DNA from: Gemmatimonadota bacterium
Lineage (GTDB): Bacteria; Gemmatimonadota; Gemmatimonadetes; Gemmatimonadales; GWC2-71-9
Assembly: GCA_003221035.1 (NCBI GenBank)
Contig: QHUB01000020.1
Span: 1 to 64,000 of the forward strand
Reading direction: 5' to 3'
Length of the DNA: 64,000 nt
Of this stretch, positions 54,983 to 59,336 are shown one piece after another. The position numbers and the translations under genes are program-made. Numbering within the stretch: position 1 is the stretch's first letter; each line of letters opens with the position of its first letter. Under the pieces are notes generated by a model. It was not told where the DNA came from and made no database searches. It worked only from the letters and a program-made list of their open reading frames with translations.

Positions 54983-55969
54983 TCAGACCAGGTGAATGTC
55001 TTCCGTCCGAAACCGGGCGTGCAGCTGCTTGATGAACTCGTGCTGGATGAGATGCTGGTCCGCGATTTCTCGGCCGCGCAGCACCACGGTGAAGGCGACG
55101 CCGGGTTTGCTGAACGCGCTGAAGCGCACGAACGGTTTGAATCCATCCACGCCTCCCGCCACCTGGTTCATGACCGCCTGCGCGACGTCGAGGGAGATCG
55201 CCTCGACGCGCCCGAGATCGGTGTCGTTCACCACCGTGACGGGGACGAGCACCGCCATCTCCATCGCCGGCAGATAGTAGTTGGTCAGCGTGGTGCCCGC
55301 GAGCTTGGAATTCGGAACGATCGTCAGGTTATTGGAAAGTTGGCGTATCGTGGTGTACCGCCACGTCACATCCTGGATGTAGCCTTCCTCGCCGGTCGCG
55401 AGCTGGACGTAGTCGCCGGGACGCACCTGCCGCGACGAGAGGATATGAATCCCTGCGAAAAAGTTTGCGAGCGTATCCTGCAGCGCGAGCCCGATCGCCA
55501 GGCCGCCGATGCCGAGCGCGGTGAGCGCGGGCGTGATCGATACGCCGAACGTCTGCAGAATGATGAGCACGCCGATCGTGATGATCACGAGCCGCGCGAC
55601 GTTCACGAGCAGCGTGGCCGAGGCGAGCGAGCCACGCAGCGGCCCCGACAGATGCGAGACGATGGCGCCCACGAGCCGCGCGACCGACCAGCTGATCGAC
55701 AGCACCAGCAACACGAACAGCGTGTGCCGGATGCCCAGCGTCAACCGGTTCGGTGTCTCGAGCACTTCGAGCGCCAGGAACAGACCGGCCGCCGCACACC
55801 ACAAGACCGTCGGGCCGCGCAGCAGCGCGTAGAGATAATCGCCGAGCCAGGAGCGGCGGCGCCGCCCGCCCGGAAACATCACGTATTGGAGAATGAGACC
55901 GACGATGGCACCGCCGACCGCGAACGCAGCCGGCGGCCACACCGTCTTCAATACGGCAGGATCGATCAA
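54983..55969 (-). CDS. MscS-family mechanosensitive channel
   Basis: MscS channels open under membrane tension to release solutes. The 328-residue protein has about five membrane helices. The pore and beta region reads ALTALGIGGLAIGLALQDTLANFFAGIHIL, then PGDYVQLATGEEGYIQDVTWRYTTIRQL and VPNSKL, with the cytoplasmic alpha/beta part at the end. The first conserved residues follow TTG 55967-55969, which overlaps the DJ-1 stop (TTGA). Longer upstream open frame lies entirely within the DJ-1 gene and is spurious. Confidence 0.87.
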   Translation of the reverse strand: MIDPAVLKTVWPPAAFAVGGAIVGLILQYVMFPGGRRRRSWLGDYLYALLRGPTVLWCAAAGLFLALEVLETPNRLTLGIRHTLFVLLVLSISWSVARLVGAIVSHLSGPLRGSLASATLLVNVARLVIITIGVLIILQTFGVSITPALTALGIGGLAIGLALQDTLANFFAGIHILSSRQVRPGDYVQLATGEEGYIQDVTWRYTTIRQLSNNLTIVPNSKLAGTTLTNYYLPAMEMAVLVPVTVVNDTDLGRVEAISLDVAQAVMNQVAGGVDGFKPFVRFSAFSKPGVAFTVVLRGREIADQHLIQHEFIKQLHARFRTEDIHLV

Positions 55970-56550
55970 CTCTCCCAGCCGCGGCGATTGGAACCCGCGG
56001 GCGCGTGCACGCCCTCGCCGAACTCTTCGATCATCTTCTTGTTGAAGGCCGGGATGTCGTCCGGCTTGCGGCTGGTGACGAGACCGTTGTCCGTGACCAC
56101 CTGCTCGTCCACCCAGTTGGCGCCGGCGTTCTTGAGATCGGTCTTGAGCGACGGCCACGACGTGAGCTTCCTGCCGCGCACCGCATCCGCTTCAATCAGG
56201 ATCCATGGCGCGTGACAGATCGCCGCCACCGGCTTGCCGGCTGTGACGAAGGCGCGCACGAATTCGACCGCGCGCGGCTCCATGCGGATCGAGTCCGCAT
56301 TGATCACCCCGCCGGGTAACAGCAGGGCGTCGAAGTCGTCGGGCTTCGCCTGTTCGAGTGCGACGTCCACCCGGACCGTCTCACCCCAGTGATCTTTTTC
56401 CCACGCCTTGATCTGCCCGCTCTTGGGCGAGATCACCTTCGTCTCCGCACCCTCGGCGTCGAGCGCCTTGCGGGGCTCGATCAGCTCCGCACGCTCGAAA
56501 CCATCGGTGGCGAGGATTGCGACTCGGGTGTTCTTCAGTTTGTCTGCCAT
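55966..56550 (-). CDS. DJ-1/PfpI family protein (type-1 glutamine amidotransferase-like)
   Basis: The 194-residue protein has RVAILATDGFERAELIEPRKAL, DALLLPGGVINADSIR and the nucleophile elbow VAAICHAPWILIEA with Cys followed by His. These match PfpI/YhbO-like proteins, reported as proteases, glyoxalases or deglycases. GGAG lies near the ATG. It is co-translated with MscS, which suggests a stress-response pair. Confidence 0.9.
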   Translation of the reverse strand: MADKLKNTRVAILATDGFERAELIEPRKALDAEGAETKVISPKSGQIKAWEKDHWGETVRVDVALEQAKPDDFDALLLPGGVINADSIRMEPRAVEFVRAFVTAGKPVAAICHAPWILIEADAVRGRKLTSWPSLKTDLKNAGANWVDEQVVTDNGLVTSRKPDDIPAFNKKMIEEFGEGVHAPAGSNRRGWES

Positions 56551-56631: not shown

Positions 56632-58644
56632 TCACTTCATCCACACTTCGATGACGCCGCCGGTATGGCCTGAACCGTAGCGCTGCTGCGCTTCGCCGGC
56701 GGTGAGGAACCGCAGCACCCGCACGTTCATGATCTGAAAATCCCGTAACCGGCTGACGTCCCCCGTCAGGATGCCGCCGTTGAGCGCGACGTGGACCTCG
56801 CCCGCGCTCTGGTCATATATGCTGGTCCGTCCGCGCGTGACCAGCCAGTTGGGCCGGAATTGCTGGATGAGGGACAGGACATCGGTTGCCGACGTGCCTT
56901 CGTACTCCGCGGGGTCGAGGACGTTCTGATTGTGCGACGCGGCGCGGCGGCGCTCCGCGCTGGCTCGGAAGGCCGCAGTGTCGTTCCCTGCCGGAATGAT
57001 CGTCGGCGGCGTGTTTGGCGCTGCTAGCGGCGGAGGCGGAGGCGGGGGCGCCTTCGCAATGGGACCGGTCGGTGCGATCGCTCCGGTCCGCACGTCGATG
57101 ACACCGCCCTCATGACCGGCACCGAAGCGCAGCTGCGCTTCACTCCCGGTGAAGAAGCGAATCTCGCGAATCTCTTGTGCGGGGATCTCGCGCAGCCGGC
57201 TCAGCTCTCCGAACTGCTGACCGTTGAGATAGACCTGCACGTTTCCGGCAGTCGGATCATGAATGCTGATCGTGCCGCGGCTGCGCATCCACATGGGCCG
57301 CAGCTCTTGCACGATCGAGTAGGCGTCGGTCGCGGTCGTGCCCTGCACATCTTCCTGCGTGATGAGATTGGTGTTATGTGACTTGGAGCGCGCCGCTATG
57401 ACTGCGGCCGCCGGCACAATCGTATCCGGAGCACTCCCGGAGGAGGCAGGAGACACTGCGGCCGGCGCCGCTCCCATCCCAACCGGTTGCGGCGCGGGAT
57501 CTGTTGCGGCGGCCATCACGCTCGCGCTCGTTGCGGCGACGCTCGCCAGTGCCGCGGCCAGCGAGTCGGAGCGATACACGACGGCGCCGCCGCGAGTCTT
57601 GATCTCCACCGCATTCCCGCCGGTCTCGATGAATCCCACCACCTCCGGCGCGGTCCCCATGGCCATCGGGCGCTGCTTCAGCACGGCGAGCGGCATCCGG
57701 ATCGCCCAGTTGTGCACGATCCACGTGCCTGACGGCAACCGCAGGAACTCGATTCGCCCACCCGCCCTGGGCGCGACGAGATCCTCCGGCAGCCGCGTGT
57801 ACGTGTAGTCGACGAAACGCAGCTCGGCGGTCTTTCGGTCGATCCAGAGCGTCCCTGCAATGTCGGAGAGGGTTCGGCCCTTCGCCGGTGTGAATGCCAG
57901 GCCGACCAAGTGGTCCGTTTCATCCCGGCCCTGTTTCGTCTCGAAGCAGTGTGTCCGCAGGAACGGAGTGCTGACCAGGACGTCGGCATCCGGACCGCGA
58001 TAGATCCAGCCGGCACCCTCTCCTGCGGAAATGACGAAGCCCTGCGCCTCGAGCTCCTCGGGCGGCGCGCTCTTGACGGGCACCAGCCGGTACCCGGCGT
58101 CGCGCCACGTCGAATCCGCGCCCTTGCGACGGCCACTCGCGGTCAACTCGCGCTGGAAATGCGCCAGGTCGTACCAGTAGTTCGGGAGTCGAGACGTCCA
58201 TGCCACCGCCGCGAGCGCCTCGTGAATCTCATCCCAGAGTGCCGCCACCGACGCGCCGCCGACGAGGTCGCATTGCCGTTCGCCCTCCACGACGACGCTG
58301 GCCAACGCCACCGGGATCGGATGGACCATCGCCTGGAAGGAGACGACGTCCGTGCCTTGCAACGTGAGGGGTGCAGAGACATAGGGGCGGAACCCGATTC
58401 GTTTCGAGCGCAGCCGGTAGCTTCCGGGTGCGGGTGCCGTCAGCAGGAATTCGCCGGCGGCGTTCGTGATGGCGCGCGCGCGTTCGGCGCCCTGGTCGTC
58501 GATGAGGGTGACGAACGCGTCCGGAATCGACGCCCGCGTGAGGCTATCGGTCAGTTGTCCGCGCACGCTTTGCGCCGCCACGAGTACGGGCAGAGCCAGC
58601 AGGCACACCGTCGGGACGAGGGCTAGCTTTTTTGCTCCCACCAT
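56632..58644 (-). CDS. exported protein: carboxypeptidase-regulatory-like domain and two TonB-plug-like repeats, no barrel
   Basis: The 670-residue protein has a signal peptide (ALVPTVCLLALPVLVAAQ) and a CarboxypepD-reg-like beta domain (about 27-110: VRGQLTDSLTRASIPDAFVTL). A middle domain of unknown type spans about 120-400. Two repeated units at about 435-530 and 580-670 follow. Each runs TDxxSxxQxxRPxWxxxRG, then a 'VxxxLNG' strand, SRLRxx, and RFxxGxEAQxRxGxGHxGGVIxV. The units resemble the plug of TonB-dependent receptors, but no beta-barrel follows. Pro-rich linkers join them. It overlaps the CDP-alcohol transferase gene by 22 bases. Confidence 0.68.
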   Translation of the reverse strand: MVGAKKLALVPTVCLLALPVLVAAQSVRGQLTDSLTRASIPDAFVTLIDDQGAERARAITNAAGEFLLTAPAPGSYRLRSKRIGFRPYVSAPLTLQGTDVVSFQAMVHPIPVALASVVVEGERQCDLVGGASVAALWDEIHEALAAVAWTSRLPNYWYDLAHFQRELTASGRRKGADSTWRDAGYRLVPVKSAPPEELEAQGFVISAGEGAGWIYRGPDADVLVSTPFLRTHCFETKQGRDETDHLVGLAFTPAKGRTLSDIAGTLWIDRKTAELRFVDYTYTRLPEDLVAPRAGGRIEFLRLPSGTWIVHNWAIRMPLAVLKQRPMAMGTAPEVVGFIETGGNAVEIKTRGGAVVYRSDSLAAALASVAATSASVMAAATDPAPQPVGMGAAPAAVSPASSGSAPDTIVPAAAVIAARSKSHNTNLITQEDVQGTTATDAYSIVQELRPMWMRSRGTISIHDPTAGNVQVYLNGQQFGELSRLREIPAQEIREIRFFTGSEAQLRFGAGHEGGVIDVRTGAIAPTGPIAKAPPPPPPPLAAPNTPPTIIPAGNDTAAFRASAERRRAASHNQNVLDPAEYEGTSATDVLSLIQQFRPNWLVTRGRTSIYDQSAGEVHVALNGGILTGDVSRLRDFQIMNVRVLRFLTAGEAQQRYGSGHTGGVIEVWMK

Positions 58645-59336
58645 CTGTACCTCTGCGGTTCAAGCTTGTTGAGGCGGTACAGGTTTCTGGCGAACCGTCC
58701 CACGAACAGCGCCACCATGCCCGCAAGGATCACGCCGAGCGTCCAGTTCGCCACGACGTCGATCGGAACGGGCAGCGGCGAGGGCCAGCCCGTGGTGACA
58801 ATCGCCACCGTATTAAGGAAGACGAGAATCAGCCGCACTTCGGTCGGACCGATCCGGCCGTACGAGATCTTGAAGACGCCAAAGACCGTGGACTCGAGGT
58901 AGACGTTGATCGACATCGCGAGATAGACCACCACGACGGCGAGTGCGAGGCCGAGGTAGACGTAGGGCGACAGGCCGAGTCCCAGGCCGATGATCATGGT
59001 CGAGTAGGCGTCCACGACGTGATCGAGGTAGTAGCCGTACTTGGGGCGCTGGGTCTCGCGCACGCGCGCGAGCGTGCCGTCGAGACTGTCCCCCAGCCAA
59101 TTGACCACCAGCATGGCGCTGGCCATCCAGAGCCACGCGTGACTGTAGTTGGTGAGCGCGTAGGCAATACCGGTGCCCGTCGCGCCGATCACGCCCAGGC
59201 CGGTGAGGTGGTTCGAGCGGATTCGCCGCGGCACCCGCTGGGCGAGCCACACGAGGACCGGCTTTTCCCAGCGGGCGAGCAGGAACGTCAGCTCCCGCTG
59301 ACCGCCCCCTCGTCCTGATTCAGCGTTAGCCGTCAC
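58623..59336 (-). CDS. CDP-alcohol phosphatidyltransferase family membrane enzyme
   Basis: The enzyme joins a CDP-activated lipid to an alcohol in phospholipid synthesis. The 237-residue protein has about six membrane helices and the full catalytic motif DSLDGTLAR, then YGYYLDHVVD (D-x2-D-G-x2-A-R-x8-G-x3-D-x3-D with small spacing differences). The acceptor alcohol cannot be told. The start GTG shares one base with the M1 stop, and the 3' end overlaps the next gene. Confidence 0.87.
   Translation of the reverse strand: MTANAESGRGGGQRELTFLLARWEKPVLVWLAQRVPRRIRSNHLTGLGVIGATGTGIAYALTNYSHAWLWMASAMLVVNWLGDSLDGTLARVRETQRPKYGYYLDHVVDAYSTMIIGLGLGLSPYVYLGLALAVVVVYLAMSINVYLESTVFGVFKISYGRIGPTEVRLILVFLNTVAIVTTGWPSPLPVPIDVVANWTLGVILAGMVALFVGRFARNLYRLNKLEPQRYRWWEQKS

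Follow-up and report, generated by a model that had tools for sequence, protein, structure and literature searches.

The protein encoded at positions 56632..58644 on the minus strand of the window (the whole stretch of 64,000 nucleotides of Gemmatimonadota DNA that was analysed) ends in two homologues of the plug of TonB-dependent receptors and carries no barrel. We consider it probable, at roughly 60%, that this is an exported, apparently non-lipidated protein with two barrel-less plugs on proline-rich tethers, in which the plug fold, otherwise the moving gate of TonB-dependent transporters, has been reused for binding or docking in the cell envelope. It is the single barrel-less unit, not the double plug, that merits definition as a family.

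Domain organization of the window protein

The gene was a single frame of 670 aa with an ATG start, and all of its parts are given here on the minus strand. Judged from the sequence by eye, residues 1-24 (58573..58644) were a likely signal peptide, and no lipobox cysteine was seen at its end within residues 1-30. It was followed by a CarboxypepD_reg domain (PF13620, residues 26-99, 58348..58569), which passed the family cut-off with 46.8 against 32.3 bits, a conserved domain of about 245 residues (residues 121-365, 57550..58284) defined by an alignment of 27 rows, and a linker rich in Ala, Pro and Ser (57388..57549) recognised from the sequence. Plug-like unit 1 (residues 420-520, 57085..57387), identified by the unit alignment, the profile comparison and the fold model, was joined by a proline-rich linker (56941..57084), with a block mean pLDDT of about 55-74 in the tandem model, to plug-like unit 2 (residues 569-670, 56635..56940), which formed the C-terminal end of the protein. 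The original prediction that the units follow a carboxypeptidase-regulatory-like domain was correct about the domain, but the two are not adjacent, as the domain of about 245 residues and the linker lie between them; that intervening domain was absent from the prediction.

The two units shared 47% identity across 100 residues (E 2e-33), and their local alignment score of 247 compared with a maximum of 49 among 1000 shuffles. Two similar units had been proposed and were found, with a length of about 100 residues rather than about 90. The pattern RFxxGxEAQxRxGxGHxGGVIxV, expected at the end of both, was exact in unit 1, whereas unit 2 read RFLTAGEAQQRYGSGHTGGVIEV, one position off. No barrel-family match was returned by the domain-family search in the 670-aa protein, and the domains, linkers and two units accounted for all 670 aa, leaving no sequence for a barrel. 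An overlooked barrel was thus ruled out, and the expectation that a 22-strand barrel has no room in this protein held. SusC/RagA-type receptors consist of a CarboxypepD_reg domain, a plug and a barrel. The window protein was built from two of these three module types, but it differed from such receptors in its spacing, in the intervening domain of about 245 residues and in the missing barrel. An initial pattern scan that used the entire protein returned no relative, and a search of a plasmid collection gave a single match, in Gemmatirosa, with 34% identity.

The middle domain (residues 121-365) was found in relatives by a family-level search, and 26 of the 31 relative stretches were aligned with the window protein. 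The 27 rows contained 15 invariant columns, and the domain in the 26 aligned relatives carried a conserved HCF motif. It had no sequence match in NCBIfam or the PDB and nothing convincing in Pfam, where one of the 27 rows matched one unrelated family at 0.033; as a guess, a LolA-like fold may be named as a candidate. Three relatives (L023, L030 and L037) had the same first two domains as the window protein together with extra CarboxypepD_reg domains. At the C-terminus of both L037 and L023 was another, different plug-like domain with no barrel match, which scored 29.8 bits with PF07715 in L037, over the cut-off, and 20.9 bits in L023, under it. The tail of L030 resembled these two ends by eye.

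Homology of the units to receptor plugs

Profile comparison revealed homology between the units and the plugs of TonB receptors. The unit alignment combined the two window units with 22 of the 25 stretches found to give 24 rows; a truncated sequence (L070), a second copy (L067:1631) and a bridge sequence (L011) were dropped. Three columns were invariant and nine nearly invariant across these 24 diverse units. The receptor-plug alignment was made from the same genome and contained 15 of its 23 PF07715 places, namely the 15 best-scoring ones in frames of at least 633 codons. Two weaker places in 735-codon frames and six in shorter ones were not used. Of the 15 frames, 12 matched a barrel family as well. 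When the two profiles were compared by hhalign, they matched at 95.4% with an E-value of 1.8e-8 over 87 columns, whereas the negative control, in which the unit profile was compared with the middle domain of these proteins, gave 0.2%. Together with the fold search described below, this comparison and its control ruled out a chance motif without homology.

Searches with single sequences and against public families pointed the same way. PF07715 was matched by 10 of the 24 units at E <=1 (best 1.4e-7) and was the only Pfam family matched by more than one of them at that threshold. Against this, the window protein itself scored 20.0 bits with PF07715, under the curated cut-off of 23.9, and neither unit 1 alone nor unit 2 alone gave a Plug match in Pfam. 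The best 16 rows of the unit profile against PDB sequences were all TonB-dependent receptors, six of them BtuB at about 5e-4 and the ten others at 0.06-0.17; an unrelated enzyme followed in row 17 at 0.24. When three free units were used for a pattern scan, it also pulled in two genuine receptors, L102 and L103, each with a PF07715 plug and a PF00593 barrel, at E-values of 7e-5 and 8e-5 that are relative to the candidate stretches only.

Predicted fold of the units

Structure prediction suggests that the plug fold is retained in the units. The fold alignment consisted of 18 of 21 stretches and the two window units; the three stretches excluded, to avoid bias, were a distant plug-like one and a pair of true receptors. 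The AlphaFold model of unit 1 had a pLDDT of 85.3 and a pTM of 0.76, and the 50 listed of its 116 Foldseek matches were all TonB-dependent receptors by title. Within these 50 the TMq ranged from 0.35 to 0.63, and the best E-value, 4.3e-4, was the sole one below 0.001. A re-alignment of Foldseek's own matches with VIA gave a best Z of 8.3, for which the tool cautions that values of 7-8 are usual without a clear match. Given the moderate TM-scores and this caution, the case for the fold depends on the fact that receptors fill all the listed rows. In the tandem model, helices and strands followed one another in equal order in units 1 and 2, and the 50 listed structure matches were again receptors; the linker was poorly predicted, and the pTM of 0.46 gave no support for a fixed arrangement of the units. 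The TonB-plug-like nature first proposed for the units thus agreed with both the profile homology and the predicted fold, and the predicted model did not depart from the plug fold.

Departures from working plugs

Compared with the PF07715 plug, the units showed a colinear profile match, a predicted fold common to them, a C-terminal [YFW]G...G-[VAI]-I motif and a central V-x-[LV]-[DN]-G-like strand. They differed in having shorter loops, an added RPxWL motif and, in the case of the window protein, no barrel and a score under the Pfam cut-off; the C-terminal 22-strand barrel of a whole TonB-dependent receptor is missing. The unit is a trimmed plug and not a full one.

The residues that connect plug and barrel were examined on the K-12 sequence of FhuA. 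With a signal peptide that we take to be 33 residues long, positions 93 and 133 were both R and stood within RG and RGP motifs. R93 and R133 are described in an excerpt of PMC11658791 as conserved basic residues that lock the plug of FhuA to its barrel. The position equivalent to R133 was K or R in all 15 receptors but in none of the 24 units, whereas the position equivalent to R93 was R in all 15 receptors and in 19 of the 24 units, in a part where the alignment is loose. The complete lock pair of two basic residues was thus seen in none of the units. Part of it may survive, as the R93-equivalent was kept in most units, but the loss of the R133-equivalent from every unit argues that they are not gates.

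The same residues bear on whether the units close, from outside, a barrel that is encoded elsewhere and has no plug of its own. True plug homology, the predicted fold and the retained R93-equivalent would fit such a role, which we nevertheless regard as very unlikely, because the PF00593 barrels of the genome are mostly paired with their own Plug match and the R133-equivalent is lost throughout. Among the 16 PF00593 places in the genome, 13 shared their frame with a PF07715 match (one below the cut-off), two more were in frames long enough, at more than 1000 aa, to contain a diverged plug, and the last was in a frame of 159 aa at a contig edge, so that no clear plug-less barrel was present among them. 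Two plugs on one chain would also be a poor fit to a single pore.

Plugs without barrels have been made in the laboratory. The isolated FepA plug behaved as unfolded (Usher 2001, as given in an excerpt of PMC11658791), while a neisserial plug kept its structural integrity (Oke 2004, according to its title as cited by PMC12419801). These plugs are barrel-less like the window units, but they were laboratory truncations, whereas natural genes encode the units here. The FepA plug is also reported to bind ferric enterobactin, weakly, at 5 uM (PMC11658791, excerpt), which would suit a putative role in which a free plug captures a siderophore or another receptor ligand in the periplasm after transport. 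This role is unlikely, as the long variable insertions of several receptors were absent from the units in the unit/receptor alignment and the adjacent genes were not recognisable genes for the uptake of iron, cobalamin or glycans. A second putative role follows from the Ton box, the TonB-binding element that the plug of receptors carries according to an excerpt of PMC5413942: free plugs may act as a decoy or regulator that binds and tunes TonB or the Ton complex, which we consider quite unlikely.

The single unit across the phylum

Across the phylum, the plug unit recurs in small proteins, which are often lipoprotein-like, and is also attached to other exported proteins. A unit match at E <= 1e-5 was found in 118 of 150 sampled phylum genomes. 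Among the best 150 or so places listed, 20 were in frames of more than 300 codons, while the frames of the others had 133-297 codons; seven were in frames of more than 500 codons, four of these being the units of two double-plug proteins from the window's genus. A lipobox was found by a simple pattern in the hydrophobic stretch before 36 of 62 unit instances, a count that includes double-plug relatives and fusions. The fusions differed in their partners: a unit headed a GH115 glycoside hydrolase (L114; PF15979 at 1.4e-85, with 524 of 1114 codons seen), another preceded TPR repeats (L116), and a single unit ended a protein with N-terminal and middle domains of the window type (L115). No barrel match was found in any of these three. 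By record titles, the units found in a named scan belonged to Gemmatimonadota, with one case each in candidate division KSB1 and Neomarinimicrobiota. The genome of the window had one further free unit (C86) and two short proteins that passed PF07715 outright, at 62.9 bits (C88) and 57.8 bits (C90).

Two loci showed other arrangements. The protein L083 (G000:C88:3029-3331, minus strand, 147 codons) was lipoprotein-like, with a mature part that was nearly all SusC-type plug; it scored 62.9 bits with PF07715 and 39.5 bits with the SusC signature TIGR04057 against a cut-off of 46.2, and its gene adjoined that of a GH97 glycoside hydrolase (PF14508, PF10566). At L117 (G169:C28:45981-47351), three free plug-unit genes lay in a row on one strand. 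Among the papers listed from the literature outside subscription journals and preprints, none was seen to describe natural barrel-less plug proteins in Gemmatimonadota.

The double plug within the genus

Pairs of units in one frame were sought with a tandem model in 395 phylum genomes, with the six best candidates scored per genome. Such pairs headed the E-value order of the matches listed and, among these matches, occurred in three genomes only (G000, G027 and G222), all of the window's genus. The "double plug" that had been put forward as a family was therefore not borne out at the level of the phylum, since among the matches listed the tandem pairs were confined to this genus. Orthologues of the first two domains were found in nine of the ten genus genomes, the window's own included, and no orthologue was found in the tenth (G288). 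Two units were present in G000, G027, G407 and G222 and one in G276, G287 and G408. The gene of G376 was cut inside a unit by the contig end. G050 had only a remnant of the unit, as a deletion and a frame change had left the last part of it in another frame (L015/L085, G050:C59).

Strong support was obtained on 2 of the 15 inner branches of a unit tree with 18 rows. The first units grouped together (93/89), and the second units formed another group with the single unit of G408 (88/84); the single units of G276 and G287 stood outside both groups. With moderate support, the simplest history would start from one unit that was duplicated once within the gene, after which G408 lost unit 1.

The loss of most of the unit region in G050 indicates that this region is not indispensable. 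This deletion with its frame change is also what could be expected if the units were relics, that is, functionless fragments of dead receptors. We consider this explanation highly improbable in view of the three invariant and nine nearly invariant columns, the presence of the unit in most of the sampled genomes, the signal sequences and lipoboxes, and the retention of the duplication.

Gene neighbourhoods

The plug gene overlapped by 22 bases with its upstream neighbour, which encodes a CDP-alcohol phosphatidyltransferase (58623..59336, minus strand; PF01066, 34.5 bits). The other neighbours in the window encoded M1 and M61 peptidases, a PfpI/DJ-1 protein and a mechanosensitive channel. Both the phosphatidyltransferase and the M61 peptidase lay next to the homologues of two further species of the genus (L014 and L015/L085). 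The M1 peptidase was found beside the L015/L085 homologue; the L014 stretch ended before the position of the M1 gene. In these two species the M61 peptidase gene came directly after the plug gene, while in the window the genes of the mechanosensitive channel (PF00924) and the PfpI/DJ-1 protein (54983-56550) separated the two. None of the phosphatidyltransferase, M61 and M1 genes was found in the flanks, of only about 1.5 kb, of more distant homologues, and a conserved operon beyond the genus was rejected at this flank length.

Around 16 free-unit loci, 69 of 79 selected neighbour frames were scanned, the other 10 having been dropped by hand as the unit gene itself, overlapping or doubtful. No consistent partner appeared among the 25 of 65 families listed; CarboxypepD_reg was found in 4 of the 69 frames and Plug in 2. 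For another envelope family, an excerpt of PMC12419801 names Plug domains, with their barrel status unstated, among the operon neighbours.

Discussion

The reading that we favour is that of an exported envelope protein in which the plug is a binding or docking module. The CarboxypepD_reg domain, which is Ig-like, the domain of about 245 residues and then two plugs on flexible tethers would be exported together to the envelope. There the plug fold, released from gating, may serve as an independently folded module for binding or docking, either within the periplasm or on the periplasmic side of the outer membrane. Its likeliest use would be to anchor the protein to a partner in the envelope, as it would an enzyme in relatives, and two tethered copies of the plug would raise avidity. 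Periplasmic binding or signalling, the role first suggested for free plugs, is a putative one. A broader form of this proposal, which is speculative and rather doubtful, is that a large family of lipid-anchored or tethered barrel-free plugs makes up an envelope docking system of Gemmatimonadota, in which they would bind TonB, receptor barrels or receptor-associated complexes and bring enzymes and other exported proteins to the uptake machinery. If this were so, the GH115 glycoside hydrolase, the TPR proteins and the window protein would be its cargo.

For annotation, plug-family matches in this phylum should not be counted as transporters unless the barrel has been checked. In laboratory work, barrel-less plugs have been described as folded and as unfolded. 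Naturally occurring free-plug genes, present in several copies and as fusions across the phylum, would show that the fold is able to exist by itself and was taken up for a different task.
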